The position numbers and the translations under genes were made by a program. A stretch of 64,000 bases of DNA from Candidatus Melainabacteria bacterium (GTDB lineage: Bacteria; Cyanobacteriota; Vampirovibrionia; Obscuribacterales; Obscuribacteraceae). Below, piece after piece: positions 4,155-61,446 of the stretch. The notes beneath the pieces are model-generated. The model saw only the letters and a list, made by a program, of their open reading frames with translations. It was not told where the DNA came from and ran no database searches. Each line of letters begins with the position of its first letter. Position 1 is the stretch's first letter. The DNA lies in assembly GCA_003963305.1 (NCBI GenBank), contig RXJR01000001.1, positions 124,001 to 188,000 of the forward strand, read 5' to 3'.

Positions 4155-4305
4155 ATGGACACTCTCACACGGTCAGGGAGCTTCGGTTACGACAGACGGA
4201 ATGAATTACTCACGGAGCCAATTTGTTTGAGACTATTTAATATCATATTGGGTTGATTGCAACATTGATTTGCTAAAACGATCCACTTGAGGACGAAGGA
4301 AGGTG

Positions 4306-4404
4306 CAGCCGCGACGGCTGCGCTCCATGCAGCCGGGACGGCTGCGCTCCATGTTGCCGGGACGGCTGCGCTCCATGTCGTCGGGACCGCCGCACTCCAT
4401 GCAG
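4306..4404. repeat. 24-bp tandem hairpin repeats, 4 copies (array A)
   Basis: Four 24-base units begin at 4306, 4330, 4354 and 4378. The core is CAGCCGGGACGGCTG followed by CGCTCCATG. The core is an inverted repeat (CAGCC-GGGAC-GGCTG). Copies 1 and 2 form a full stem, and copies 3 and 4 are progressively degenerate. The array directly follows the stop codon of the ferredoxin/beta-lactamase gene. A related array with a different but still self-complementary stem lies at 29301-29497. Confidence 0.9.
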
Positions 4405-5304
4405 CTATTCATTGCCGAAATGGGCGTACCACTGATTCGCCGGCAGTTTCATTAGTTCGATCAGACTCTGCAATTGCTCGTGCATCTGTTCTGGGGGAAG
4501 TCTGCCTCGATTGCCGTGACCAGCCAGAACCCATTCAAACCGGTACTGAGCCAGTCTCGTCATTGAAATTATTTGCTCATCCCACGAATACCAGCAATGC
4601 CTTCTAAATGCGACGAGTTGTGAGCTTACAGCGTCGTAAGCGAGATGATCACCAGTAAACAGGAATTTTGATTTATAGAGAAGCACCATGTGACCTCGGG
4701 TATGCCCCGGCACCGGAATAATTGTGAATTCCGGTGCGAATTCAATTGCAGCAGTACCGTCTATGACAGTCTCTGCAGCGGGCTGCGCCGAAATTTCGCT
4801 GCGATGAATAATGCGTTCCGCACCAAATTCAGTGGCATAGCGAGATGCCTCGGCAACGTCATCTTGATGCGTGAGAAAGAGATATTTGATTCCGCCTAAT
4901 TGCTGAAATTGCTTGACCAGATGGGGCAAATATTTAGGCGAATCTATCAGCCAATTCCCATCAGGATGCTTCAGAAAGAAGCTGTTGCCCCCATAGGACT
5001 TGGGAGAATTGAACCCGCAATAATAGACATCCTCTTCGATCAGCAGCGGCAAGTCCGCCATCACAGCTTTGGCTTCGTTGTTTGCCAAAGTTCCGATCGA
5101 CCCGGTGGGGCAGCAAAGCAGAGCACGCGTGGCAGCTCTCACATCGGATGAATCGACAGGCTGTTGAAAGACATAGGAATGTTCGCCCTGGTCGGCGAAG
5201 GAGCCCGGAGCCAACTGCCTGCACGTGTCGCAATTAATGCAGGTCGAATCGACAAAAAAGTTTCCTGGCGCATTGTCTGGTACAACTTTATTGATATCGG
5301 CCAT
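4405..5304 (-). CDS. Ferredoxin and metallo-beta-lactamase-fold fusion protein
   Basis: 299 residues, no signal peptide. Residues about 17-75 are ferredoxin-like: CINCDTC (C23, C26, C29) and a distal CCPTGSI (C64-C65), enough for one 4Fe-4S cluster. From about residue 90 there is a metallo-beta-lactamase fold with LTHQDDVAEA (a variant of HxHxDH in which the first His is replaced), PGHTRGH, TGDH and AGHG. Fusions of this layout occur in cyanobacteria and plants, where their reaction is not well established. A redox-linked hydrolase or oxidoreductase is inferred. The stop codon is followed almost at once by repeat array A. Confidence 0.8.
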   Translation of the reverse strand: MADINKVVPDNAPGNFFVDSTCINCDTCRQLAPGSFADQGEHSYVFQQPVDSSDVRAATRALLCCPTGSIGTLANNEAKAVMADLPLLIEEDVYYCGFNSPKSYGGNSFFLKHPDGNWLIDSPKYLPHLVKQFQQLGGIKYLFLTHQDDVAEASRYATEFGAERIIHRSEISAQPAAETVIDGTAAIEFAPEFTIIPVPGHTRGHMVLLYKSKFLFTGDHLAYDAVSSQLVAFRRHCWYSWDEQIISMTRLAQYRFEWVLAGHGNRGRLPPEQMHEQLQSLIELMKLPANQWYAHFGNE

Positions 5305-25477: not shown

Positions 25478-27706
25478 TTAGAGCGCCGCCATTTTGGTTT
25501 TAGGCTCTCGATTCCATACACGAAGCTTCTTGCACATCGTCAAGAAATTACTCGCGTCACTGGCATCGCGCACCTGCATTACACCCTCATCTTTAGCAGT
25601 GGCTACGCCATTTTTCTCGAGCAACGGAGCAGCTTCAGTATTGAAAGCAATAAACTTCAGATGAGCATAAGCATCAGACACGAAATCTCTCGCGTTCGCG
25701 TCGGAAGCCAATTTTCGGGCTCCATCGCTCGAAGTCAAAACAGCAACGGAGTCGAATAAAACAGACGGAGTTCCATTCAGCCTGCCGTCAGCTTTTATGT
25801 GAGTACCGTCGCTTGCATCAACACCAGATATGGTTGGAGCAACAATCGCAACATCCGCGCCAATATTCTTAGCTGCATTTCGCAGAGCATTGACCAACTT
25901 CGCGTCAACACCGTCTGTAACCAGCACACCAAGTTTTCTTCCTTTGAAACTGGATGGTCCATTTTTGATGATGCTAAGCTCAGGCGATTCCGGCAGGTCA
26001 GTTTTTGCAGGATGCGCGGTGGCTGCAGCTGGCGGCAAGCTCTTCATGCCAAGCCCGGCAGCAACACGCTGCGCTAGCACTTTGTCGATATTCTCCAGGT
26101 GCCCTACCATTCGCGAGCGAATTTCGGGCTTCTCGACTTTCGATAATTCGAACGTCAACGCATCGCTGATGTGTGTCTGCTCACTTGGAGTTTGGCTAAT
26201 GTAAAACTGTCTGGCCTGGCTGTAATGATCGGCAAACGATTCTGGACGCACACGCAACTTCTGCCCGCTTACCTCTTCAGGGTAAGACTTGAAACCAATT
26301 GTTGGATTCTCACGCGGTCCGCCCCACGAGTTTGGCTCGTAGTTGACCCGTCCTTTCGGATTGTTCATCGCCATGTGTCCATCCTGCTGGAAATTCATGA
26401 CAGGACAGCGCGGAGCATTGATGGGCAAATGGGTGAAATTCGTTGAACCAAGACGCGACAATTGCGTGTCGAGATAGGAAAAATTTCTCAACTGCAGAAG
26501 CGGGTCGTTGGTGAAATCGATACCAGGGATGATGTTGTTCGTACAGAATGCGACCTGCTCTGTCTCCTCAAAAAAGTTATCAACTGTTTTGTTCAAAACG
26601 AGCCTGCCAACGCGCTGGACGGGTACCAGTTCTTCCGGAATAATTTTGGTCGGATCGAGCACATTGAAATCAAATTTCTTGGCAAAATCTTCATCAAAGA
26701 GCTGCATTCCCAATTCCCACTCTGGATATTGCCCTGCCTGAATTGAATTCCAGAGGTCATGGCGATGGAAATCGGGATCAGCACCGTTGATCTTCACAGC
26801 CTCATTCCAGACTACAGATTGAAGACCTTGTTTTGGTTTCCAGTGAAACTTGACGAAGGTGCTTTTGCCCTGCTCGTTGACGAGCCTGTACGTGTGCACG
26901 CCAAATCCTTCCATGAATCGGAATGATCGCGGAATGGCGCGGTCAGACATAATCCACATAATCATGTGCATAGATTCAGGTGACAACGAAATAAAGTCCC
27001 AAAAATTGTCATGCGCACTCTGAGCCTGCGGAAACCCAGTATTTGGTTCTTGCTTAACCGCATGAACCAGGTCTGGAAATTTCAGACCGTCTTGTATGAA
27101 GAAGACCGGAATGTTGTTACCGACTAAGTCCCAGTTTCCTTGTTTCGTGTAAAACTTGACCGCAAAACCTCTGACGTCGCGAGCCAGATCCATCGAACCT
27201 TTATTTCCGGCAACCGTGGAAAAGCGCACGAATACGGGTGTCCGCTCACCCGCGCGTTGGAAGACATCGGCCTTTGTGACATCAGACAAAGATTTATACG
27301 GCTCGAAATATCCATGCATGCCAAAACCTCTTGCGTGCACGACACGCTCAGGAATCCTCTCGTGATCGAAATGAAAAATCTTTTCTCGACCGACGAAATC
27401 TTCCAACAGCGTCGGACCATGCGCTCCTGCTTTCAAAGAATTCTGATCATCGGAAATCGGCACACCCTGTTGCGTAGTCATAGTAGGGATGCTACCGCCA
27501 CTAACCTGATGTGTTTCATCTGATGTGCCACGCAGCGTTTTTGGATCGCCTGAAGCCTGCGTACCCTTGTCATCATACGAGACGCCCGGTGAAGAGGCTG
27601 GGTCAGACTTGGCGTAACAAAGCACGCCAGCACTGAGGTTCAATGTAGTTGCTGTGAGCAATGTTGCAATCGCGATGCGAGAACGGTTATGGAATACAGG
27701 GATCAT
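25478..27706 (-). CDS. Large-subunit (clade 2, HPII-type) catalase, apparently exported
   Basis: 742 residues from ATG at 27706, with AAGGAAG 6-7 bases upstream. The heme catalase core has the distal His in ERVVHARG (about H124), [11 protein letters not shown], and the proximal Tyr region [12 protein letters not shown]. The C-terminal about 150 residues ([20 protein letters not shown] onward) are the DJ-1/PfpI-like domain typical of KatE/HPII. It decomposes hydrogen peroxide. Unusually, the N-terminus reads [26 protein letters not shown], a probable signal peptide, so the enzyme would act in the periplasm. The next minus-strand genes upstream encode an acidic protein and hemerythrin-like proteins. 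Confidence 0.93.
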
Positions 27707-27870
27707 TTTTACTTCCTTGTTAACTGAGCAGTGGATTCCGAATCGAATTGACGCACGCATACTCGAACTGGAGCTCAATAGTGTAGCCTATTATCCTACA
27801 ACAGACAGCCCCAAAATGTCGACTTTAATACAACGACAACTCAACAAGAGCACGTCGATGTGCTCAGTAT

Positions 27871-28272
27871 TTAAACAGACGAATCGTCCTCAACGTTGTC
27901 GGGTCGCAACACGACATCTGGATTATCGGCTTCACCGTCACCACTCAGAAGATCAACATGCAGAGGTTGTGTCTCAGGCAAGAGACCCTCGTCATCATCT
28001 TCATCCTCTTCGTTGCACTCATCGGCGATTCCGTCACTCCATTTCTCGTCAACCTTATTACTGACGTAAGGCATCTCGAGGTTTCCAAGCCGCGCTTCTT
28101 CGTCAGTAAAGTACGTATGCCCAACATTCTCCGGCGTTTCGCTCTTAAAGCTAACATCAGGCTCTTCTCGGTTAGTCTCAACAGTCTGAGCGCTGTCAAT
28201 TTGGGTGATTGCCTGTTGTAGTGGAATGCCGCTCACATCAAGGGCTTTTCCTTTCGTTTGATTGTGTTTCAT
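27871..28272 (-). CDS. Acidic protein of unknown function
   Basis: 133 residues, very acidic, with a run EEDEDDDEG near residue 90 and no hydrophobic segment. It is probably largely disordered. AAGGAAT lies about 8 bases before the ATG, and its stop is followed by the catalase gene on the same strand. It lies 26 bases downstream of the hemerythrin/histone-tail gene, which has a comparable acidic run at its N-terminus. I do not recognise a family. Confidence 0.6.
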   Translation of the reverse strand: MKHNQTKGKALDVSGIPLQQAITQIDSAQTVETNREEPDVSFKSETPENVGHTYFTDEEARLGNLEMPYVSNKVDEKWSDGIADECNEEDEDDDEGLLPETQPLHVDLLSGDGEADNPDVVLRPDNVEDDSSV

Positions 28273-28298: not shown

Positions 28299-29276
28299 CT
28301 ACTTCTTGCCTTTCGAAGCTGGCTTCTTCGCAGATTTGTTATTAGCACGACCGGCTGCTTTGGATTTTCCGGCGGCTTTAGTTTTTCCGGCAGCTTTAGA
28401 TTTTCCGGTTGCTTTAGATTTTCCGGCGGACTTGCCCTTCGACGAAGCCTTCGACTTCGAGGAAGCAGCCTTTCCTTTGCCGCCTTTGCTCGATGCCGCT
28501 GCTTTTGCCTTGGCTCCACTTCTGGCTTTAGCACCCGTTTTTTTGGCGGAAGACCTGGCGCTGGTTTTCTTGCCGCGAGCTGAAGCAGCCTTTGCTTTCC
28601 CGCGGGTTGAAGATCCGCCCCTTGCTTTGTTTTTTACTGCCGACTTCGACTTGGATTTAGACCGCTTACTCATCGACGCAACTTCTTCCTCGATTTCCAT
28701 CCTTCTCTCGAGTGCGATCTGGCCAATTTCTTCAAAATCGATTTCTGTCTCAGCCGCTTTTAGCTTCTCGAACATATCCTTCTCTTCGCGCTTTACTTGC
28801 TCTCGACAGAGCTTATGCAGAACTGCCATCTTGCCGTCGAAGTAATCGTCGGATGGCTTCATAGTCTCGAGTACATCGAGGATCATAGATGCTACATAGT
28901 TGGAAGCTTCGGCTTCAAACACTAGCTCCTGAGCTTCTTCCTTTTCGTCTTCCTTTGCTGTCTCAGGAAGCAATGGGTAATAAAGCTCTTCGACAAGTTG
29001 CGTGTGAACTTTCAATCCGGACTTGATCTGATCGAACAATTCCTGTTTCTCGTCATCCTCTTCAGACTGGCAATATTGGAAGAACAGCTCAGCGGCACGA
29101 CTGTTACTCTCGTGTACCAGCTGGATTAGATCAACCTTCATAGGAGAAACTTGATCGCTATTCTCGTCGCCTTCTTCATCATCGTCGTCGTCGTCGAAAT
29201 CGATTTCTTTCATCGCCTGCGGTTGCTTGTTATTGGTGGGTTTCTTTTGATTCACTTTGCTGACTGTGTATGTCAT
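28299..29276 (-). CDS. Hemerythrin-like domain fused to a histone-H1-like Lys/Ala tail
   Basis: 325 residues. Residues 27-38 are an acidic run (DFDDDDDDEEGDE), 48-200 a helical hemerythrin-type domain, and 203-325 a tail made almost only of Lys, Ala, Ser, Gly and Arg with short SKAAGK-type repeats, like bacterial histone H1 homologues. Against the paralogue at 29500-30045, the metal ligands are mostly lost: H27 is N58 here, E64 is V95, H90-H91 are N126-Y127, and H123-H124 are E159-Q160. H55 and H91 remain. Iron binding is therefore doubtful, while the tail should bind DNA. GGAG lies 8-9 bases before the ATG. Confidence 0.8.
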   Translation of the reverse strand: MTYTVSKVNQKKPTNNKQPQAMKEIDFDDDDDDEEGDENSDQVSPMKVDLIQLVHESNSRAAELFFQYCQSEEDDEKQELFDQIKSGLKVHTQLVEELYYPLLPETAKEDEKEEAQELVFEAEASNYVASMILDVLETMKPSDDYFDGKMAVLHKLCREQVKREEKDMFEKLKAAETEIDFEEIGQIALERRMEIEEEVASMSKRSKSKSKSAVKNKARGGSSTRGKAKAASARGKKTSARSSAKKTGAKARSGAKAKAAASSKGGKGKAASSKSKASSKGKSAGKSKATGKSKAAGKTKAAGKSKAAGRANNKSAKKPASKGKK

Positions 29277-29300
29277 ATCGATTACTCCGTTATTTTTCTA

Positions 29301-29497
29301 ATGCAGTCGGGACGACTGCGCTCCATGCAGTCGGGACGACTGCGCTCCATGCAGTCGGGACGACTGCGCTCCATGCAGTCGGGACGACTGCGCTCCATGC
29401 AGTCGGGACGACTGCGTTCCATGGCAGTCGGGACGACTGCGTTCCATGGCAGTCGGGACGACTGCGTTCCATGGCAGTCGGGACGACTGCGCTCCAT
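29301..29497. repeat. 24/25-bp tandem hairpin repeats, 8 copies (array B)
   Basis: Eight units with core CAGTCGGGACGACTG begin at 29304, 29328, 29352, 29376, 29400, 29425, 29450 and 29475. The period is 24 bases for the first five and 25 for the rest, where ATGC becomes ATGGC; the link is CGCTCCAT or CGTTCCAT. Each core can fold CAGTC-GGGAC-GACTG. The array lies directly behind the stop codon of the hemerythrin gene at 29500 and is in the same orientation relative to it as array A is to its own gene. Confidence 0.95.
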
Positions 29498-29499
29498 GG

Positions 29500-30045
29500 T
29501 TATGCTGACTTTCGGTCGCGCTGGTCTCGGTTGCCGATAACGGGGAAGGTCTCTTCGGGCAGCGGTTTGGCGCTCAGCGCGGCTTTGCGCTCTAGGAATT
29601 TTTGAGCCAGTTCATTCAAGTCGGCATCAGCATTTTTCAGCTTTTCAAAAATCTCTTCTTCTTCCTCTTCTACGTGATGCTTCACCAGTTCACACAGAAC
29701 CGTTACTTTTGCATCGTAGTGATCGTCCGAAGGCTTCATACTGCCCAATTCAGCAAGCAGGAACTTGACGACGTGATGTTCCGTATCAGCCTCGTCCATC
29801 ATTGACTCTGACTCTTTCTCACCGTCGCGCACTTCCGGGTAAACGATCTCTTCCTCCAACTTCGCGTGCAGACCAAGTTCATGCGAAATCTGGTCAACAA
29901 TTGCCTTCTTCTCACTTTCATCTTCAGATTTGGCGAACTGGAAAAATAACTCGTCAACCTTCATGTGGTCTCGATGCAGCAGTTGCAGAATATCTTCAGA
30001 TACCGGCATTTCTGGCTTACGTGCGTCTTGCTCTGTCTGATTCAT
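29500..30045 (-). CDS. Hemerythrin (HHE) domain protein
   Basis: 181 residues, cytoplasmic. The di-iron ligand set of hemerythrin-like proteins is complete: LLHRDH (H24, H27), LHAKLEEE (H60, E64), EHHVVK (H90/H91) and KHHVEEEEE (H123/H124 with E128). Such proteins bind oxygen or act in oxygen, NO or iron homeostasis. The start is ATG at 30045, with AGGAG about 8 bases upstream; a GTG three codons earlier is less likely. It is the likely ancestor or paralogue of the ligand-poor histone-tailed neighbour. Confidence 0.88.
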   Translation of the reverse strand: MNQTEQDARKPEMPVSEDILQLLHRDHMKVDELFFQFAKSEDESEKKAIVDQISHELGLHAKLEEEIVYPEVRDGEKESESMMDEADTEHHVVKFLLAELGSMKPSDDHYDAKVTVLCELVKHHVEEEEEEIFEKLKNADADLNELAQKFLERKAALSAKPLPEETFPVIGNRDQRDRKSA

Positions 30046-30239: not shown

Positions 30240-31226
30240 CTAGGCTTTAGCAGCAAGCTGGGAGAGACGACTTTCAAGATAGTTCTCTAACTCAACCAGC
30301 GCATCGCTGAATCCCTGGATTCCTTCGGCGAGTTTTTCATTAGCCATTTTGTTTTCGGCATGCATCTTGTCGAAAACGTCTTTATTCATTTCAATGCGCT
30401 GAATCGTCGACTTCTTCGAGCTTTCAGGGTCAAGCTTACGCTCTAATTTCGCGTCACTTGAATCCAACTCGCCCAGGAGCTTCGGCGAAATCGTCAGCAA
30501 ATCACAGCCTGCCAGCTCGATAATTTCATCAATGTTCCTGAAGCTTGCACCCATGACCACAGTCTTATAGTCGAACTTTTTGTAGTAGTGATAAATCTCA
30601 GTGACTGATTTGACACCCGGATCCTCTGCACCTTTATAGTCTTTGCCTGTATCTTTTTTGTACCAGTCAAGAATTCGACCGACAAACGGCGAGATCAACG
30701 TGACTTTAGCTTCCGCACATGCTACAGCCTGATGAATTCCAAACAGCAGAGTCATATTGCAATGAATTCCTTCTTGCTCCAGCTTTTCAGCGGCTCTGAT
30801 TCCTTCCCATGTAGAAGCGATTTTTATCAAAATACGCTCGCGTGAGATTCCCGACCCTTCGTACATCTGAATAATTTCGCGAGCCTGAGCAATAGTGGCT
30901 TCCGTATCATATGAGAGCCTGGCGTCGACTTCGGTCGAAACGCGGCCCTTGATGATCGTGAGAATCTTTCGACCAAAAGCCACCGCCAGATGCTTAAACG
31001 CATAATTTGCAGTGTCCTTCGTAGAACCTTTCGGACCAACTTCTTTCTTTGCTTGCTGCAGAACTTCATCAACTAGCGCAGAATATCCAGGCATTTTAGA
31101 AGCAGCCAAAATCAGCGACGGATTGGTTGTGCTGTCTTGCGGCTTGAATTTTGTCATCGAATCGAAATCACCAGTGTCTGCAACGACAACGGTCATCTCT
31201 CGAAGTTGCTCCAGCAATGTGCTCAT
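30240..31226 (-). CDS. tal: Transaldolase
   Basis: 328 residues, TalB-type length. It moves a dihydroxyacetone unit between sugar phosphates in the non-oxidative pentose phosphate pathway. Seen: [10 protein letters not shown] (family signature), [47 protein letters not shown] with the Schiff-base Lys in IKIAST, and [16 protein letters not shown] lies 5 bases before the ATG. It has its own terminator. Confidence 0.96.
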
Positions 31227-53276: not shown

Positions 53277-56150
53277 TTGACAGCGGCTGATTCAAACGAG
53301 AACACTCGACCCAGTGGCGCCACTGAATCCGGTTTGTCGAGCGCACCGTATAAACGTGACGAGATTCTAGGCGGACGCTATCGGGTAATCTCCCTGCTAG
53401 GCAGAGGCGGAATGGGAGTCGTCTACAGGGTTGAGCAGATTTTTCTGGGGAAAGAACTGGCCCTAAAAACAATCGACCGGCATTTAATGTCTGACATCAC
53501 TGTCCGACGTTTCCAAGCCGAGGCGAGAGCTGCGTTTGCCGTCGATCACCCCAACCTCGTTGCCGTTCACGACTTCGGACTCTTCGAAGATCAGACTCCA
53601 TTTCTCGTCATGGAAATCGTGCAAGGCGAAACACTGGGAGACCGTCTTAAACGTGGTCCTCTCTCTCTGGACGAAGCCATCCCCATATTCGTGCAAGTCT
53701 GTTTTGGACTGGCGCACGCGCACGAACACGGAGTTATTCATCGCGACATTAAACCAAACAACATCATGCTGCTCGATGACGTACCAGAAGGTATTGATAC
53801 CGGAGTAAAGATATTAGACTTCGGTATAGCCAAACTGGCACAACGTGAAGGCGGTGAGATTCAAGCACTGACCAGAACGGGCGAAATATTCGGCAGCCCC
53901 CTTTATATGAGCCCGGAACAGTGCCTGGGTACTAAGGTCGATCATCGCGCTGATATTTACTCGCTTGGTTGTGTCATCTACGAAAGCTTGACTGGCACGC
54001 CCCCTTTCGTCGGCGAGAATGCGCTGGCAACTATGATGCTGCATCAGACTGCTCCGATACCCACGCTGAAAGAAGCGCCTCAGAATAAGCACTATCCGCC
54101 AGAGCTTGAGCGGCTCGTACAATTGATGTTGGCTAAAAACCCCGATGACAGACTGCAACACATAAGCGATGCGGCTTTTCAGCTCGGCGCATTGAAAAGC
54201 GGTTCGCCATCAACACCAAACAACCTACTGCTGCCGACCAAGCGACCGGCGGGGCAAGAGGACAGAGCGGGCATTATTACCATCGAGAAGCAAAAGTTTT
54301 ACGGTGGCGTCTTTGCATTAGCATTGGTCACCTTCTTAATTTCAAGCAGCCTCACGTATTTTTCGCAGTCAGCAAACTTTCGCTCGAATCGACCGGGGAA
54401 TGACACGTCAAAACAGCCGGAGTCTGGTGCGCCTGAAAACGCGAATGGTGGCACCAACAACACCAATGCAAACGGCACTATTGCTAACGATACCAATAGT
54501 AATGGCACTAGCACAAATGCCACTAGCACAAATGTCCCCAACACAAATGCCCCTAACACAAATGCCACACGCACAAATGACACTAGCACAACTGGCAGCG
54601 CTGCAAATACAAGCGCTGAACGCACGGGCACTGCTAAAGCACCGAGTGAGAACACATCTTCCGCTGCAGCGAGCACCGAGCCCACCGAATATGCAGCACT
54701 CTTTGCAAACGGCGTTAAAGAGGGTTCAAACTATTTCCATTCCAAATTGGCCACTGATGATAGCCTGAACATCTTCAAGGGTTACAAACTTGCACAGGCG
54801 GTCAATCTACAGGATGGTCAATTTTCAGATAAAGCACTCCAAAATCTCAAAGACTCAAAAGTTTTGAGGTTGGTGCTAGACAATTGCGTACTCGACAAAT
54901 TCGACAATCTAGCAGACTTATCGTGGCTGCAAGTGATCGATCTCACAAATTCAAACGTTACAGACAGCGCCATGCCCGTGCTCGCACATTTGAAAATGTT
55001 GCGGCACTTACAATTGAAAGGGTGCCAGATTTCCGAGGATGGCTTGCGGCAACTGGCAACGTCAAATTCTCTGACTTCTCTGGATCTAACTCCTGAGAAA
55101 TATTCCACGACATTTATAAATGAGCTCGCAGAAAAAATGCCGGGCTGCATCATCAGCCCCTACAAGAAGAATTCGAAGTTGCAGGAAATTGCGCTTTCCG
55201 ATCATTCTAAAGATCGCGCGCAGTGTCTTTCGAAGATTATTGCCAGAGCAGAGAAGAGTAACAAATACCACTCTAGCAATGTTACTTACCTGGTAGAACT
55301 AGCGCATCTTTACGCAAAGCGTGGTCTCTTTAAGGATGCCCGCAGCCTCGTCGAAAAATCCGTTGCTATTTGCGAACACAGCGGCGACTTGCGCAGTTTA
55401 GTACTTCCACTTCGACTAAAATCGGGCTACGTCGCAGTGCAGGACAAAGATACTGAGAAGGCGATCGCTCTTAACGACCGTGCCGAACATCTTTATGTGG
55501 ATACCATTATTCATGATGGTGACCCACTCATGTTGAATACACTTAATGAATTCACCTTGCTACCACTGAGTCTGAAGCAGTGGGACCCAGCAATCGAGTA
55601 TTGCAAAACAGCAATAGGTTTTATAGACAAATATCCAAAACTCGACGAAACACATCAGATGCTGCCAACTTTTCTTGAGCGTGTTGGTTGGTTGTATTGG
55701 ACGGAGAAAAAAATGGATGAGGCACAGCCGTATCTCAAAAGAGCCCTCGATCTTAACACTGTGAATAAAGATTCGCAGCCTAATCCATATCTCAGGTCAT
55801 TGATAGAGTATGCACACACTTTGACAAAAGACTTCGAAAGCCGGAAAAAAATGTACATTGAGGCGATCGACCAATTGGATAAACTCGGACGGCCTGAAGC
55901 TTTAGACCTAAATGCACACTATTTAAATGCATGCACAAACCTGGCGCTGATTCTTGGAGCGCAAGGAGACCACACCCACGCGGCATACTACTTTCAAAAA
56001 GGCCTCGACACATTGCAACACTTCAAGCACCAGGAAGATATGAACAAGCAAAAAACCATGTTAAGCAAAGGTCTGGTGAGACAGTTGGCAGCAGCCGGTC
56101 GCAAATCTGAAGCTGAGAAGGCCGCTAAAAAGTATGGAGTAAAACTTTGA
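53277..56150 (+). CDS. Receptor-like Ser/Thr kinase with LRR and TPR regions (copy 1)
   Basis: 957 residues. Kinase (about 34-305): GRGGMGVVY (42-50), K64, HRDIKPNN with D157, DFG with D181, activation stretch TRTGEIFGSPLYMSPEQ. Membrane segment about 342-362. Then an Asn/Thr/Ala-rich linker (about 388-450) made of short TNA/TNG/TST repeats, three to four LRRs (about 500-600: DSKVLRLVLDNC, LSWLQVIDLTNSNVTDSAMPVLAHLKMLRHLQLKG), and a TPR region (about 620-950). The kinase is cytoplasmic and the LRR-TPR part periplasmic. The start is TTG at 53277; a long frame upstream is absent, so it is likely real. Confidence 0.92.
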   Translation: MTAADSNENTRPSGATESGLSSAPYKRDEILGGRYRVISLLGRGGMGVVYRVEQIFLGKELALKTIDRHLMSDITVRRFQAEARAAFAVDHPNLVAVHDFGLFEDQTPFLVMEIVQGETLGDRLKRGPLSLDEAIPIFVQVCFGLAHAHEHGVIHRDIKPNNIMLLDDVPEGIDTGVKILDFGIAKLAQREGGEIQALTRTGEIFGSPLYMSPEQCLGTKVDHRADIYSLGCVIYESLTGTPPFVGENALATMMLHQTAPIPTLKEAPQNKHYPPELERLVQLMLAKNPDDRLQHISDAAFQLGALKSGSPSTPNNLLLPTKRPAGQEDRAGIITIEKQKFYGGVFALALVTFLISSSLTYFSQSANFRSNRPGNDTSKQPESGAPENANGGTNNTNANGTIANDTNSNGTSTNATSTNVPNTNAPNTNATRTNDTSTTGSAANTSAERTGTAKAPSENTSSAAASTEPTEYAALFANGVKEGSNYFHSKLATDDSLNIFKGYKLAQAVNLQDGQFSDKALQNLKDSKVLRLVLDNCVLDKFDNLADLSWLQVIDLTNSNVTDSAMPVLAHLKMLRHLQLKGCQISEDGLRQLATSNSLTSLDLTPEKYSTTFINELAEKMPGCIISPYKKNSKLQEIALSDHSKDRAQCLSKIIARAEKSNKYHSSNVTYLVELAHLYAKRGLFKDARSLVEKSVAICEHSGDLRSLVLPLRLKSGYVAVQDKDTEKAIALNDRAEHLYVDTIIHDGDPLMLNTLNEFTLLPLSLKQWDPAIEYCKTAIGFIDKYPKLDETHQMLPTFLERVGWLYWTEKKMDEAQPYLKRALDLNTVNKDSQPNPYLRSLIEYAHTLTKDFESRKKMYIEAIDQLDKLGRPEALDLNAHYLNACTNLALILGAQGDHTHAAYYFQKGLDTLQHFKHQEDMNKQKTMLSKGLVRQLAAAGRKSEAEKAAKKYGVKL
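54438..54630. repeat. Asn/Thr-coding low-complexity repeats in the kinase linker
   Basis: Degenerate 12- and 24-base units of the type AACACAAATGCC code for NTNA, STNA and NTNG. The three tandem paralogues lack this segment, so it was gained or expanded in this copy only. Confidence 0.8.
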
Positions 56151-58753
56151 CAATCGGCTCGACAACACAGTCCAACGAATTCGAACCGGGAGAAGTTCTT
56201 GGTGGAAGATATCGCGTCGTATCAGCGCTAGGACGCGGCGGAATGGGCATCGTCTACAAAGTGGAACAGATTTATTTAGGACTGGAATTAGCTCTGAAAA
56301 CAATCGATCGCAGCAGTCTTACAGATGTATCGGTGCGACGCTTCCAGGCTGAAGCTAAAGCTGTTTTCTCCTTGAATCATCCCAACATAATTTCAGTGCA
56401 CGATTTCGGCTTACTCGACGACCAGACGCCCTTCCTGGCAATGGAATTTATACAGGGAGAGAGTCTTGCGGCACGTTTGAAGCGAGGCGCACTGCCCATC
56501 AGTGAAGTGTTACCGATGTTCATCCAGGTCTGCAAAGGTTTAGCCCACGCTCACGAACATTCGGTGGTTCATCGTGACATCAAACCTGGAAATATTATGC
56601 TGCTTGATCAGCTTTCGATAGGCACCGAAGGTAGTATCAAAATTCTCGATTTCGGAATCGCAAAATTAGGCGATCAAGAAGATGGCGGCGTGCAGTCAGT
56701 AACGCGAACAGGTGAGATTTTCGGTAGCCCTCTCTACATGAGCCCCGAGCAATGTGCGGGCAGCAAAGTTGATCATCGCTCAGACATCTACTCGCTCGGA
56801 TGCGTTATGTTCGAGTCACTCACAGGCACTACGCCGTTTGTTGGAGAAAGCGCTCTTTCAACAATGATGTTTCACCAGAGTGAACGAGTTCCGAGCCTGA
56901 AGGAAGCTTCTCTGGGCAATGATTTCCCACCGGCGTTAGAGCAAATCGTGCAGACAATGCTGGCGAAAAATCCCGAGGATCGCTATCAATCGCTAAATGA
57001 AGCGGCAAGCGATCTCGCAGCACTCGAACGAGGGGAGAACCTACAGCACGTTCGTTCTGCGTCGAACCAATCTTCAAGCGCATCTGGAGCTAAAGCCAAA
57101 AATAAATCGGACACCAAAACCATCTCAATTCGACGCGAAACGCTGATTGGCACAATAGTTGGAACCGTTCTTCTGAGCGCAACATCAGGTGTTGGCTCGA
57201 CCACCATACTGCTTGCGTCACAAAAACCAGCGGCGATTACTGCGGTACCAAGCGAAATTTCGCCGTTGCCGCCACAATCAGATCCATCCGAAATGTTTGC
57301 TCCCGATATTAGAAAGAACAAAGTCTCCTTTAAATCAGGTTGGGACACAACTAATGAGAATCTTCTACCATTCAAAAACTACGATAAAATTCAGAAGCTG
57401 GAGCTCAAACAGTGCCCTGTTAATGACGACGGTCTCGCAGTCTTACAAAACGCCAGGTTACTTGAATTAACAGTTAGTGGCTGCAGCATCAGCAGTGTAA
57501 AAAACATTTCGAAACTCAGTTACTTGCAGACGCTAGATTTGAGTGACACCGCTATCGACGATTCAGCGCTGCCCGAACTAGCAAAACTAAAAATGCTGAA
57601 AAGCTTGTCCATTCGCAATTGCAAAAAGGTGACCGAGAAAGGGCTGATGGGTCTCAGCACTTCAACGTCACTTCTTAATGTAGTTCTTACAGAAAAACAT
57701 TTTTCTACAGATGCAATTTTACGACTGCGAGAAAAAATGCCGCAATGTTCCTTTGAGGGATACGGATTGCCAAGCAAGTGCATGGAAGTCACCAGCAGGA
57801 TAAAACCAGAGCAAATCTACGCAGTGTATAAGAAAGCGATCGAACTTGCTCAACAAGTGAATCCAAATTTGAGTGTAATTGGACAACTTGAAGCAGGTAT
57901 AAGTCAATATTTCGAAAATCGACACGACTATGCCCAGGCAGAAGAATGGCTAAAAAAGGCTCGCTTAGTCCTAGAAAACAATGGAAACAAATACTTTCTG
58001 TCACAGATACTGGCCCAAAGCGGATTGCTTGCGATACATCAGAATAAGCTCGAAGAGTGTGACAAATTTTTTGACGAATCTGCTCGTTTAAGTCTAGAGA
58101 CGATGATGCACGATAGTCCAGATCTAATGGGAAGACTCGAGGCGGTGACTGCTCAACCATTTAATAGCCCATACCTGGAAAATTCATTGAAGTACTCAAA
58201 AATCGCCATTATGCTAATAAAGGAAGACGAAGGTAGAACTCCAGCGTTGCAAACTTATCTGCCGCGATTCTGCGAGCGAGCAGGACATGAACTTATTGTT
58301 CTAAAAAAAGACGAGGAGGCGCTGCCCTACTTGTTGGAAAACTACAAGATACGCAAAATGGAATCCGCACAGAACCCGAAACGTTACGCGCTATCGCTTG
58401 TTTTACTGGGCAAAGCGGAACCCACTAATGCAGAGAAAAAACGCATCTGGAACGAAGCTCTTGATCTGATGGACAGCCTCAACCATCCTTCTGATCTCAA
58501 TCTGAAAGAGTGCTACTGCGACTGTAGCGTAGCGCTCATGGAAATATTCGAATCCGAAAAGAATCACACTGAGGCTGTGAAGTATGCGCGTCGGGGTCTC
58601 ACGGTTGCGGAAGAAATTCAAGACGACACATATGACCAAAAAACCTACTTGAAAAAGCTAGTGATAAGACAGCTCTACAGAGCTGGACGCGAAACAGAAG
58701 CGCGGAAAGAGGCTGCCAAATACGGTTTCAGCTGGAGCGCCGATTTGCAATGA
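56147..58753 (+). CDS. Receptor-like Ser/Thr kinase with LRR and TPR regions (copy 2)
   Basis: 868 residues. Kinase: GRGGMGIVYK (29-38), K51, HRDIKPGN with D144, DFG with D168, TRTGEIFGSPLYMSPEQ. One membrane segment near 330-352 (LIGTIVGTVLLSATSGVGSTTILLA), LRRs with LSYLQTLDLSDTAIDDSALPELAKLKMLKSLSIRNC, then TPRs. Closely similar to copies 1, 3 and 4. The start is a TTG that overlaps the previous stop as TTGA, so the array is translationally coupled. Confidence 0.92.
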   Translation: MTIGSTTQSNEFEPGEVLGGRYRVVSALGRGGMGIVYKVEQIYLGLELALKTIDRSSLTDVSVRRFQAEAKAVFSLNHPNIISVHDFGLLDDQTPFLAMEFIQGESLAARLKRGALPISEVLPMFIQVCKGLAHAHEHSVVHRDIKPGNIMLLDQLSIGTEGSIKILDFGIAKLGDQEDGGVQSVTRTGEIFGSPLYMSPEQCAGSKVDHRSDIYSLGCVMFESLTGTTPFVGESALSTMMFHQSERVPSLKEASLGNDFPPALEQIVQTMLAKNPEDRYQSLNEAASDLAALERGENLQHVRSASNQSSSASGAKAKNKSDTKTISIRRETLIGTIVGTVLLSATSGVGSTTILLASQKPAAITAVPSEISPLPPQSDPSEMFAPDIRKNKVSFKSGWDTTNENLLPFKNYDKIQKLELKQCPVNDDGLAVLQNARLLELTVSGCSISSVKNISKLSYLQTLDLSDTAIDDSALPELAKLKMLKSLSIRNCKKVTEKGLMGLSTSTSLLNVVLTEKHFSTDAILRLREKMPQCSFEGYGLPSKCMEVTSRIKPEQIYAVYKKAIELAQQVNPNLSVIGQLEAGISQYFENRHDYAQAEEWLKKARLVLENNGNKYFLSQILAQSGLLAIHQNKLEECDKFFDESARLSLETMMHDSPDLMGRLEAVTAQPFNSPYLENSLKYSKIAIMLIKEDEGRTPALQTYLPRFCERAGHELIVLKKDEEALPYLLENYKIRKMESAQNPKRYALSLVLLGKAEPTNAEKKRIWNEALDLMDSLNHPSDLNLKECYCDCSVALMEIFESEKNHTEAVKYARRGLTVAEEIQDDTYDQKTYLKKLVIRQLYRAGRETEARKEAAKYGFSWSADLQ

Positions 58754-61446
58754 ATAACTCAGACGCTAACGATCGTGCCAGCGCAAGAGCGACACAAATG
58801 CTCGGTGATTTTCAGCCCGATCAAATCCTTGGCGGACGTTACCGCGTCATCTCATTGCTTGGGCGAGGCGGCATGGGAGTCGTGTACAAGGTAGAGCAAA
58901 TTTTTCTGGGCAAAGAGCTGGCACTCAAAACAATACTCAAGGGTGAAAAAAACGAAAACCTCCTACGCCGGTTCCAAGCCGAAGCCCGAGCAGTGTTCTC
59001 GCTACACCATCCAAATATAATCGCCGTACACGATTTCGGCTTGCTTGATGACGAGACGCCTTTTATGGCAATGGAGATCGTCACAGGCAAAACGCTTGGC
59101 GATCGACTGAAAGAAAGCCCCTTGTCGGTCGACGAAGCGATTACATTGTTCATTCAAATATGCTTCGGGCTGGCACATGCTCACGAAAGCGGCATTGTGC
59201 ATCGAGACATCAAACCCAATAACATCATGATTCTGGACGATGCCGACTGGGGCACCGAAGGCAGTATCAAGATTTTGGATTTTGGAATTGCCAAATTGAC
59301 TCAACACGAGGGCGGCGAAATACAAGCTCTAACACGAACGGGAGAGATTTTCGGCAGTCCTTTCTACATGAGCCCCGAACAGTGCCTGGGCACAAAAATT
59401 GACCATCGTTCCGATATTTATTCACTCGGTTGCGTTCTCTTCGAAGCCCTGACAGGCAAACCTCCTTTCGTGGGCGATAACGCGATGAATACTATGCTGA
59501 TGCACCAGAGAGCGGAATGCCAGAAACTGCAAGACTCAAAACCACAAACAAAGTTTCCTCCGGCACTGGAAGAAATTGTTCAAACGCTTCTGGCTAAAAA
59601 TCCAGACGACAGATATCAAAATCTTGGTATGGCAGCGCACGACCTGGCTGCTCTGAAACGCGGCGAAAAATCCAACATCAGCGCTGTAGTGAATATCGCA
59701 CGACCGGCACGCCCACCAGTCACAGCACCAGGAATGGTGAAGATAGGGAAGACAAACTTCATACTACTGCTGACTGCTACAGCCGTCTTATTTTCGGCAG
59801 GAACAGCTACGCTTTCAACGTATTTGCATTCGAAAAAAAGTTCAACTTCCGGCACGTATAAATCGAAAGCCACCGACCCGTTTGCAGAGCCAAATTTACC
59901 GGTCGTGGACACCAGCCCGCACGGAGCCTATAAGTATGTAGCGAAACTCGGTGACCCGACCGATCACACAAATTCTAAAACGAAATCAAGCCAACCAGCT
60001 CAGGAACAGGATATTCAGGAAAGCACCCTGTCCCAAGAAATCCAAAATCACTCGCCCATATTTTATGCCGGCGATTATCCAACAGATAAAACTTTGGAAC
60101 AATTCAAAGGCTACAAAGACGCACAATTTGTGGAGTTCTCCAACTGCAAGGTAACAGACGCTGGGTTTAAGAACCTGCAAGATTCAAAGATTTTGAGACT
60201 AGTAGTATCAGGAGACCAAGACATCAAGTCAGTCGATGAAATTTCGAAATTGACTTATCTACAGCGCTTGAACATGAAGGACACCGGCATTAAAGACTCC
60301 GCACTGGCAAAGTTAGCTGAGCTCCCAATGCTAGATCAGCTCGATATAAGCGGATGCGACGTAAGTGAAAAGGGGCTTTTGGAACTGACAAAATCAACGA
60401 GCCTGACACAAGTTCAACTGAGCGACAAGAAGTTCGACCGCGCATTGATCGGCAAACTGCAAGAAAAGTTGCCTCAGTGCGTATTCAGAAATTATTTCTC
60501 CGAATCGAATCTAGACAGACGTACGCGAACGATGCCTGATGATTTCGACCGCCTTAAAATCAAATACTCAATTGTATCGGCAGCCAACCCACTATCAAGG
60601 TACGCAGCCAGATACGCTCTAGATATGGTGGGGCACTATTACCTGCAAAAAAATCGTCGTCAGGAATGGGAATTAATACAGAGAGCCAAGAGAATTAGCG
60701 AACAGCGTAAGGATTGGGAAGTGCTTTCAGAGGCACTATCTTATGAATCCATGTATCTGAACGAATACGGCAACAAGAAGGAAGCGCTGAAGGTAAGAGA
60801 GCGCGCGGTCAAGCTGCTATTAGACACCTATATGCATGACGGTGCAAAGTTGCCATCTAAGTTGCTTGAGGCAATATACCTTGCCAGGGAACTTAAACGC
60901 CCCGATAAAGTAATTGAATTTGCACAGGACGGATTGAATCTAATCGACCAGTTTCCCGACCAGAATCAAGAATATTTGCCGCTATTTTGCGAACTTATTG
61001 CCTGGAGTAATTATGAATTGGAGGTGCCTACAAAAGGACAGAAGTACGCTCGGCGCAATTTAGAATACTGGGAAGTGCATAAGAATGATGTACTAAAACC
61101 TGATGAAATCAATGACCTCAACAACTTTCCCATGCAGCAATACATTCGTGCGCTGGTCGAAATGGGTCACTCTTCACCAAACCCTCAAGATCAACTGGCA
61201 TACTACAACAAAGCACTTGATTTGACGGAAAAACTGCACTACCCCGAAGAGTACAACGTAGTGGAACATTATTGTGATGCATGCGTTCACATCTCAAATA
61301 TGTATGACAAAGAAGGCAAAAAGGCCGAAGCATTGAGATATTTGCACAAAGCCGAAGCTGCACTCAAGCAAGTAAAGCATCATGATGTAGAAATCAGAAA
61401 ACACTTTTTTGCAGACAGAATCGCCGAGCATGAAAAATCAAAATAG
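58750..61446 (+). CDS. Receptor-like Ser/Thr kinase with LRR and TPR regions (copy 3)
   Basis: 898 residues. Kinase: GRGGMGVVYK (38-47), K60, HRDIKPNN with D153, DFG with D179, TRTGEIFGSPFYMSPEQCLGTK. Membrane segment about 337-357 (FILLLTATAVLFSAGTATL). LRR region with LTYLQRLNMKDTGIKDSALAKLAELPMLDQLDISGC, then TPRs (QEWELIQRAKRISEQRKDWEVLSEAL and onward). ATG at 58750 overlaps the upstream stop as ATGA. Confidence 0.92.
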   Translation: MNNSDANDRASARATQMLGDFQPDQILGGRYRVISLLGRGGMGVVYKVEQIFLGKELALKTILKGEKNENLLRRFQAEARAVFSLHHPNIIAVHDFGLLDDETPFMAMEIVTGKTLGDRLKESPLSVDEAITLFIQICFGLAHAHESGIVHRDIKPNNIMILDDADWGTEGSIKILDFGIAKLTQHEGGEIQALTRTGEIFGSPFYMSPEQCLGTKIDHRSDIYSLGCVLFEALTGKPPFVGDNAMNTMLMHQRAECQKLQDSKPQTKFPPALEEIVQTLLAKNPDDRYQNLGMAAHDLAALKRGEKSNISAVVNIARPARPPVTAPGMVKIGKTNFILLLTATAVLFSAGTATLSTYLHSKKSSTSGTYKSKATDPFAEPNLPVVDTSPHGAYKYVAKLGDPTDHTNSKTKSSQPAQEQDIQESTLSQEIQNHSPIFYAGDYPTDKTLEQFKGYKDAQFVEFSNCKVTDAGFKNLQDSKILRLVVSGDQDIKSVDEISKLTYLQRLNMKDTGIKDSALAKLAELPMLDQLDISGCDVSEKGLLELTKSTSLTQVQLSDKKFDRALIGKLQEKLPQCVFRNYFSESNLDRRTRTMPDDFDRLKIKYSIVSAANPLSRYAARYALDMVGHYYLQKNRRQEWELIQRAKRISEQRKDWEVLSEALSYESMYLNEYGNKKEALKVRERAVKLLLDTYMHDGAKLPSKLLEAIYLARELKRPDKVIEFAQDGLNLIDQFPDQNQEYLPLFCELIAWSNYELEVPTKGQKYARRNLEYWEVHKNDVLKPDEINDLNNFPMQQYIRALVEMGHSSPNPQDQLAYYNKALDLTEKLHYPEEYNVVEHYCDACVHISNMYDKEGKKAEALRYLHKAEAALKQVKHHDVEIRKHFFADRIAEHEKSK

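Follow-up and report, generated by a model that had tools for sequence, protein, structure and literature searches.

A hemerythrin-like protein that has lost iron ligands and carries a histone H1-like tail, encoded beside a ligand-intact paralogue in an Obscuribacteraceae genome

What does a hemerythrin-like protein do once most of its iron ligands have been replaced and a histone H1-like tail has been added? The question is raised by two neighbouring genes in a Candidatus Melainabacteria genome (G000; 7.48 Mb in 44 contigs) from the Obscuribacteraceae, non-photosynthetic relatives of cyanobacteria. Both lie on the minus strand of the window, the whole 64,000-nt stretch of DNA that was analysed. 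One encodes P0002, a hemerythrin-like protein with intact ligands (29500..30045), and the other P0001, a ligand-less hemerythrin-like protein of 325 aa with an acidic head and the H1-like tail (28299..29276). An initial annotation had placed open reading frames at these positions, which we confirm; a Shine-Dalgarno-like GGAG or AGGAG lies just 5' of each. It also inferred from the letters alone that P0001 might be a chromatin-like factor condensing DNA under oxidative stress. Promoter and terminator scans and an Rfam search found nothing.

We aligned 64 related hemerythrin-like domains of the family and took the strongly conserved His/Glu positions as ligand columns. P0002 (PF01814, E 1.8e-10) retains all six, as originally described: H27, H60, E64, H90, H124, and E128 in its own numbering. 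In the same columns P0001 has N58, H91, V95, N126, Q160, and E164, so that four of the six are replaced and H91 and E164 are kept. The replacements listed in the initial annotation (N58, V95, N126-Y127, and E159-Q160) are correct and align with H27, E64, H90-H91, and H123-H124 of P0002, respectively; the MKPSDD stretch common to the two proteins is also present. Only two of the six positions of the canonical di-iron set survive in P0001 and in both of its orthologues (below). From this we infer that a normal di-iron site in P0001 is very unlikely; weak or altered metal binding may occur through H55, H91, E96/E97, and E164.

The hemerythrin-like helical domain of P0001 (aa 48-200; 28677..29135, minus strand) scores 24.9 bits against PF01814 (E 3e-5), just under the curated cut-off of 25.3, but the intact paralogue and the phylogenetic tree make its homology clear. 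The AlphaFold (AF2) model is a five-helix bundle (helices 50-70, 74-106, 109-138, 146-174, and 182-211) that has the up-down helical arrangement of PF01814; most of its core reaches a pLDDT of 80-93. The best PDB match is 6q09, both by Foldseek (probability 1.00, E 0.012, TM by target 0.64) and in a sequence-profile search (1.7e-10). Since the seven-sequence alignment used as AlphaFold input included intact homologues, the model supports retention of the fold, as had been proposed, rather than the details of that fold.

On either side of the domain are an acidic head (aa 1-47; 29136..29276, minus strand; pLDDT about 36-44) and a K/A/S/G-rich polycationic tail (aa 201-325; 28302..28676, minus strand), both disordered in the low-confidence parts of the model. 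The acidic head and the Lys/Ala/Ser tail of ~120 residues reported at the outset are real, the head spanning about 47 residues and the tail 125. The tail contains 36 K, 7 R, 29 A, 26 S, and 16 G (43 basic residues and no acidic ones; pI 12, charge about +42), while head and domain together have pI 4.3 and a charge of about -32. As in bacterial histone H1-like proteins, this is a long Lys/Ala-rich segment, disordered and devoid of acidic residues; a six-frame scan of the window found no other stretch of such composition. A tandem repeat with an 18-nt (6-aa) unit (28351-28429) encodes part of it. The tail has a single proline and therefore no KPAA array. P0001 gave no match at cut-off to the Hc1/Hc2-type profile NF038053. 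This model and NF038052, both histone H1-like, matched the tails of the G070 orthologue and of intact relatives weakly, NF038053 giving 20 bits with the former against a cut-off of 80.

The tail alone, searched against its own genome, returned only itself; composition correction makes this search uninformative, as a tailed HU paralogue then emerged by another route. That paralogue ends in AKPAAKKAAKPAAKKAAKPAKKAAKKGGKKR, a K/A tail of the PAKKA type. The organism therefore bears such tails on a DNA-binding protein family, which favours nucleic-acid binding by P0001. Lys-rich C-terminal tails occur on at least two of the five HU paralogues, one being the PAKKA type (tailed paralogues L218, G000:C8:80296-80565, and L220, G000:C1:45071-45337).

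The closest named relatives among public genomes are Candidatus Melainabacteria/Obscuribacterales MAGs: Cyanobacteria bacterium SZAS-4, ES-bin-223 (G070), and MAG_CO261 (G015). The same pair, an intact copy followed by a ligand-less tailed copy, recurs in two further genomes, giving two genera in all: the P0001 domain is 75% identical to that of its orthologue in G001, from the same genus, and 54% identical to that in G070, from another. This orthologue sample is three sequences from MAG-derived genomes, and all three are ligand-less and tailed; none combines intact ligands with a missing tail. The residues at the four lost ligand columns (N/V/N/Q) are identical in 3/3, the tails span 83-131 residues with charges of +23 to +42, and acidic heads are present on the G001 and G070 proteins too. 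Repetition of the substitutions and the tail across three orthologues argues against chance. In sequence the P0001 tail is 47% identical to that of G001 and 29% to that of G070. A scan of the genome collection yielded three loci (G001, G070, and one intact) and no further ligand-less orthologue. In a phylum-wide search of 386 genomes, judged on fetched DNA, the best ~30 matches outside the window's class were untailed and ligand-intact or nearly so, one ligand column falling in an alignment gap for a subgroup.

The three ligand-less copies form one clade with 100/100 support, nested among their intact neighbours and other intact proteins that are untailed or short-tailed; the duplication supposed at the outset is real. 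Such a clade argues that the duplication and ligand loss happened once, before the lineages split, or that the copy moved between lineages. Between G000 and G001 the domain dN is 0.165 for the ligand-less copy and 0.164 for the intact one, synonymous sites being saturated. Between genera it is 0.349 against 0.205, the ligand-less domain evolving about 1.7 times faster. The equal rates within the genus point to constraint, not decay: the ligand-less domain is under strong purifying selection, and P0001 is a duplicate that has been maintained and neofunctionalised.

The catalase neighbour mentioned in the initial annotation is real and is likewise found in related genomes. It is a KatE-type HPII enzyme encoded downstream (25478..27778, minus strand; NF008422, E 3e-288). 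Between it and the tailed gene lies a gene for a small acidic protein (27871..28272, minus strand), whose family has no Pfam match and is represented in 11 of 50 genomes of the bacterial family; G001 carries this gene elsewhere, away from the hemerythrin locus. Upstream is a transaldolase gene (30240..31226, minus strand) in synteny with G001, where the order is transaldolase, intact copy, tailed copy, catalase, and MscS-type channel. At least five more genomes (G014, G067, G071, G072, and G027) have an intact relative within a few kb of a catalase gene, and this recurring linkage makes an oxidative-stress link reasonable for the hemerythrin group. The intact and ligand-less genes are adjacent and co-directional in 3/3 genomes. 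In the window they are separated by 223 bp containing a palindromic (hairpin) array of eight 24-bp copies (29301..29498), so their co-transcription is uncertain.

Arrays of the 24-bp unit occur in the window at 29301-29498 and 4304-4405, with the perfect hairpin core GCAGTCG GGA CGACTGC. Exact cores of GCAGNCGGGACGNCTGC number 31 in the host genome against 0 for the reversed control. No exact core is present anywhere in the sister genome G001, while G002 has one and G016 seven variant cores. The hairpin repeat has spread through the host genome. At 53277-61446 the window also contains a run of three large ORFs resembling serine/threonine kinases, whose N-termini look alike by eye.

Across the family, 39 of 64 hemerythrin-like proteins keep all six ligands, and 11 of these 39 carry a long K/A-type tail. 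A further 22 lack one to three ligands as well as any tail of this type; the figure is approximate, since some of the more distant sequences may be wrongly aligned in a ligand column. Losing part of the ligand set seems common in the family. Loss of four ligands together with a tail is confined to three of the 64, all in the P0001 clade. The existence of tailed intact and untailed ligand-poor proteins indicates that the two traits are uncoupled in the family and combined only in this clade. Similarly, the tailed intact proteins sit in well-separated branches, which argues that tails arose more than once. The initial annotation had linked loss of iron to gain of a tail. The association holds for the P0001 clade, but comparable tails on ligand-intact hemerythrins mean that a tail alone is no sign of departure from redox work. 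The ligand-less clade (3 genomes) and the tailed intact copies seem to exclude each other, but chance alone would produce this about 40% of the time, and we do not claim it.

Ligand-intact hemerythrins including L014, L019, L073, L121, L124, and L103 have Lys/Ala-rich tails of 130-270 residues, and some tailed ones also have long acidic heads. Another recurrent arrangement pairs a ligand-poor hemerythrin-like gene in tandem with a very divergent, conserved gene of ~145 aa (MNMDVFEFLLTNEAHLAHRLSETAAHYSEW...) whose product has a weak hemerythrin match (L139, L138, L127, L129, and L150 in G024, G068, G072, G067, and G069; L148 and L164 in G061 and G062).

We propose, at roughly an even chance, that P0001, a tandem duplicate that lost most of its di-iron ligands, is now a structural protein with a polyanion-binding tail. 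A ligand-intact hemerythrin-like gene duplicated in tandem, and the copy that lost its ligands would have become structural, with its helix bundle kept as a scaffold for association with itself or a partner. The disordered +42 tail would be the working part, binding a polyanion that is most likely nucleic acid (nucleoid DNA, or perhaps RNA). Binding is probably held in check by the acidic head and the acidic bundle, which would vie with the target for the tail. P0001 would be produced with, or alongside, the redox-active hemerythrin and the catalase, the group serving in stress or stationary phase. The data establish the duplication, the ligand loss, the tail, its conservation in three genomes, the purifying selection, and the catalase linkage; we infer the absence of metal, the nucleic-acid binding, the autoinhibition, and the stress role.

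P0001 thus probably acts on DNA, RNA, or another negatively charged polymer and not in oxygen or iron handling. The chromatin-like reading is plausible: that nucleic-acid binding is its main job is a finely balanced proposition, and for a nucleoid-condensing role we put the chance at about a third. Several points weigh against the proposal: RNA, ribosomes, and polyphosphate are likewise targets of polycationic tails, the G070 orthologue is net negative overall (-7.6), similar tails occur on intact relatives, some metal binding may persist, and the orthologue sample is small and MAG-derived. More tentative is the broader idea that the hemerythrin fold serves here as the body of a nucleoid-associated protein, in a lineage repeatedly gaining H1-like tails and with one iron-less clade, making P0001 a stress-linked factor that condenses DNA or RNA and represents a hitherto undescribed type. 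Our literature search found no paper on hemerythrins with histone-like tails, nor on hemerythrins in Obscuribacter.

RNA and ribosomes are the main rival target to DNA, because the PA2171 model NF053874 is the best NCBIfam match. PA2171 of Pseudomonas aeruginosa, a hemerythrin-like protein described as having five helices, reportedly binds ribosomes and FtsZ and represses translation, with inhibition described in vitro (PMC13041383). P0001 might by analogy be a dormancy factor whose domain works like PA2171 and whose tail adds affinity for rRNA. P0001 matches no NCBIfam model other than NF053874 (E 1e-12, over nearly the full length), which is also the top match of P0002 (E 5e-23). The scores of 48.1 and 81 bits are, however, far under the curated cut-off of 190, so neither protein is a member, and the model may just be the nearest single-domain hemerythrin in the library. 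The evidence on PA2171 itself comes from one paper and mainly from overexpression. We consider this reading unlikely, though it deserves attention.

Somewhat less likely is that P0001 is a pseudo-subunit, hetero-oligomerising with P0002 and anchoring the redox-active protein to a polyanion. The conserved adjacency and direction of the two genes would suit such a partnership, and other family members reach the same outcome by uniting intact ligands and a tail in one chain; the uncertain co-transcription across the hairpin array speaks against it in the host genome.

A role on polyphosphate or storage granules, in the manner of AlgP or PhaF and with the tail binding polyphosphate and/or DNA, is doubtful. 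In AlgP, which spaces polyphosphate granules, a helical N-terminal domain is joined to an H1-like tail (PMC9239181); the host genome encodes a polyphosphate kinase, and Obscuribacter is mentioned in work on polyphosphate accumulation. Against this, no sequence relation is apparent between the hemerythrin domain and the N-terminal domains of AlgP or phasins, and the P0001 tail does not have the proline-rich KPAA pattern. Finally, it is most improbable that P0001 is a decaying duplicate, its tail a low-complexity stretch without a function of its own that expanded neutrally through slippage of the 18-nt repeat: the repeat, the poorly conserved tail, and the faster domain between genera would fit, but within the genus the domain is constrained as tightly as the intact copy, and identical substitutions and a long open tail are kept across two genera.

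If the structural-protein proposal is right, a metalloprotein fold has become a non-metal structural or regulatory protein with its intact sister adjoining, and with intermediates (tailed but intact, or ligand-poor but untailed) scattered through one bacterial family. In the tailed relatives that keep their ligands, a di-iron protein could be tethered to nucleic acid; this would point to a Dps-like role, with iron, peroxide, or NO defence localised to the nucleoid or ribosome.

Among known systems, P0001 shares its fold, including the extra fifth helix, with the Mycobacterium kansasii HLP (6q09). HLP has an oxo-bridged di-iron site (PMC8913304), whereas four of six ligand positions are gone from P0001, which adds an acidic head and a cationic tail. 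The ribosome-binding persister protein PA2171 is also a five-helix hemerythrin-like protein, and its model spans almost the full length of P0001, but the paper describing it recognises no domain for DNA or RNA binding (PMC13041383), in contrast to the long cationic tail found here. L014, L019, L073, L121, and others have the same domain family and tails, but keep six ligands and belong to other branches. With a disordered Lys/Ala-rich tail attached to a folded domain, P0001 is laid out like AlgP, PhaF, Hc1/Hc2, and HupS-type tailed HU; the AlgP tail is needed for polyphosphate-granule spacing, and its peptides bind DNA (PMC9239181). The likeness to these H1-like bacterial tails is one of composition and charge: the P0001 tail is built of K/S/A/G, falls below threshold for H1-like families, and is joined to a folded domain that is a degenerate hemerythrin.
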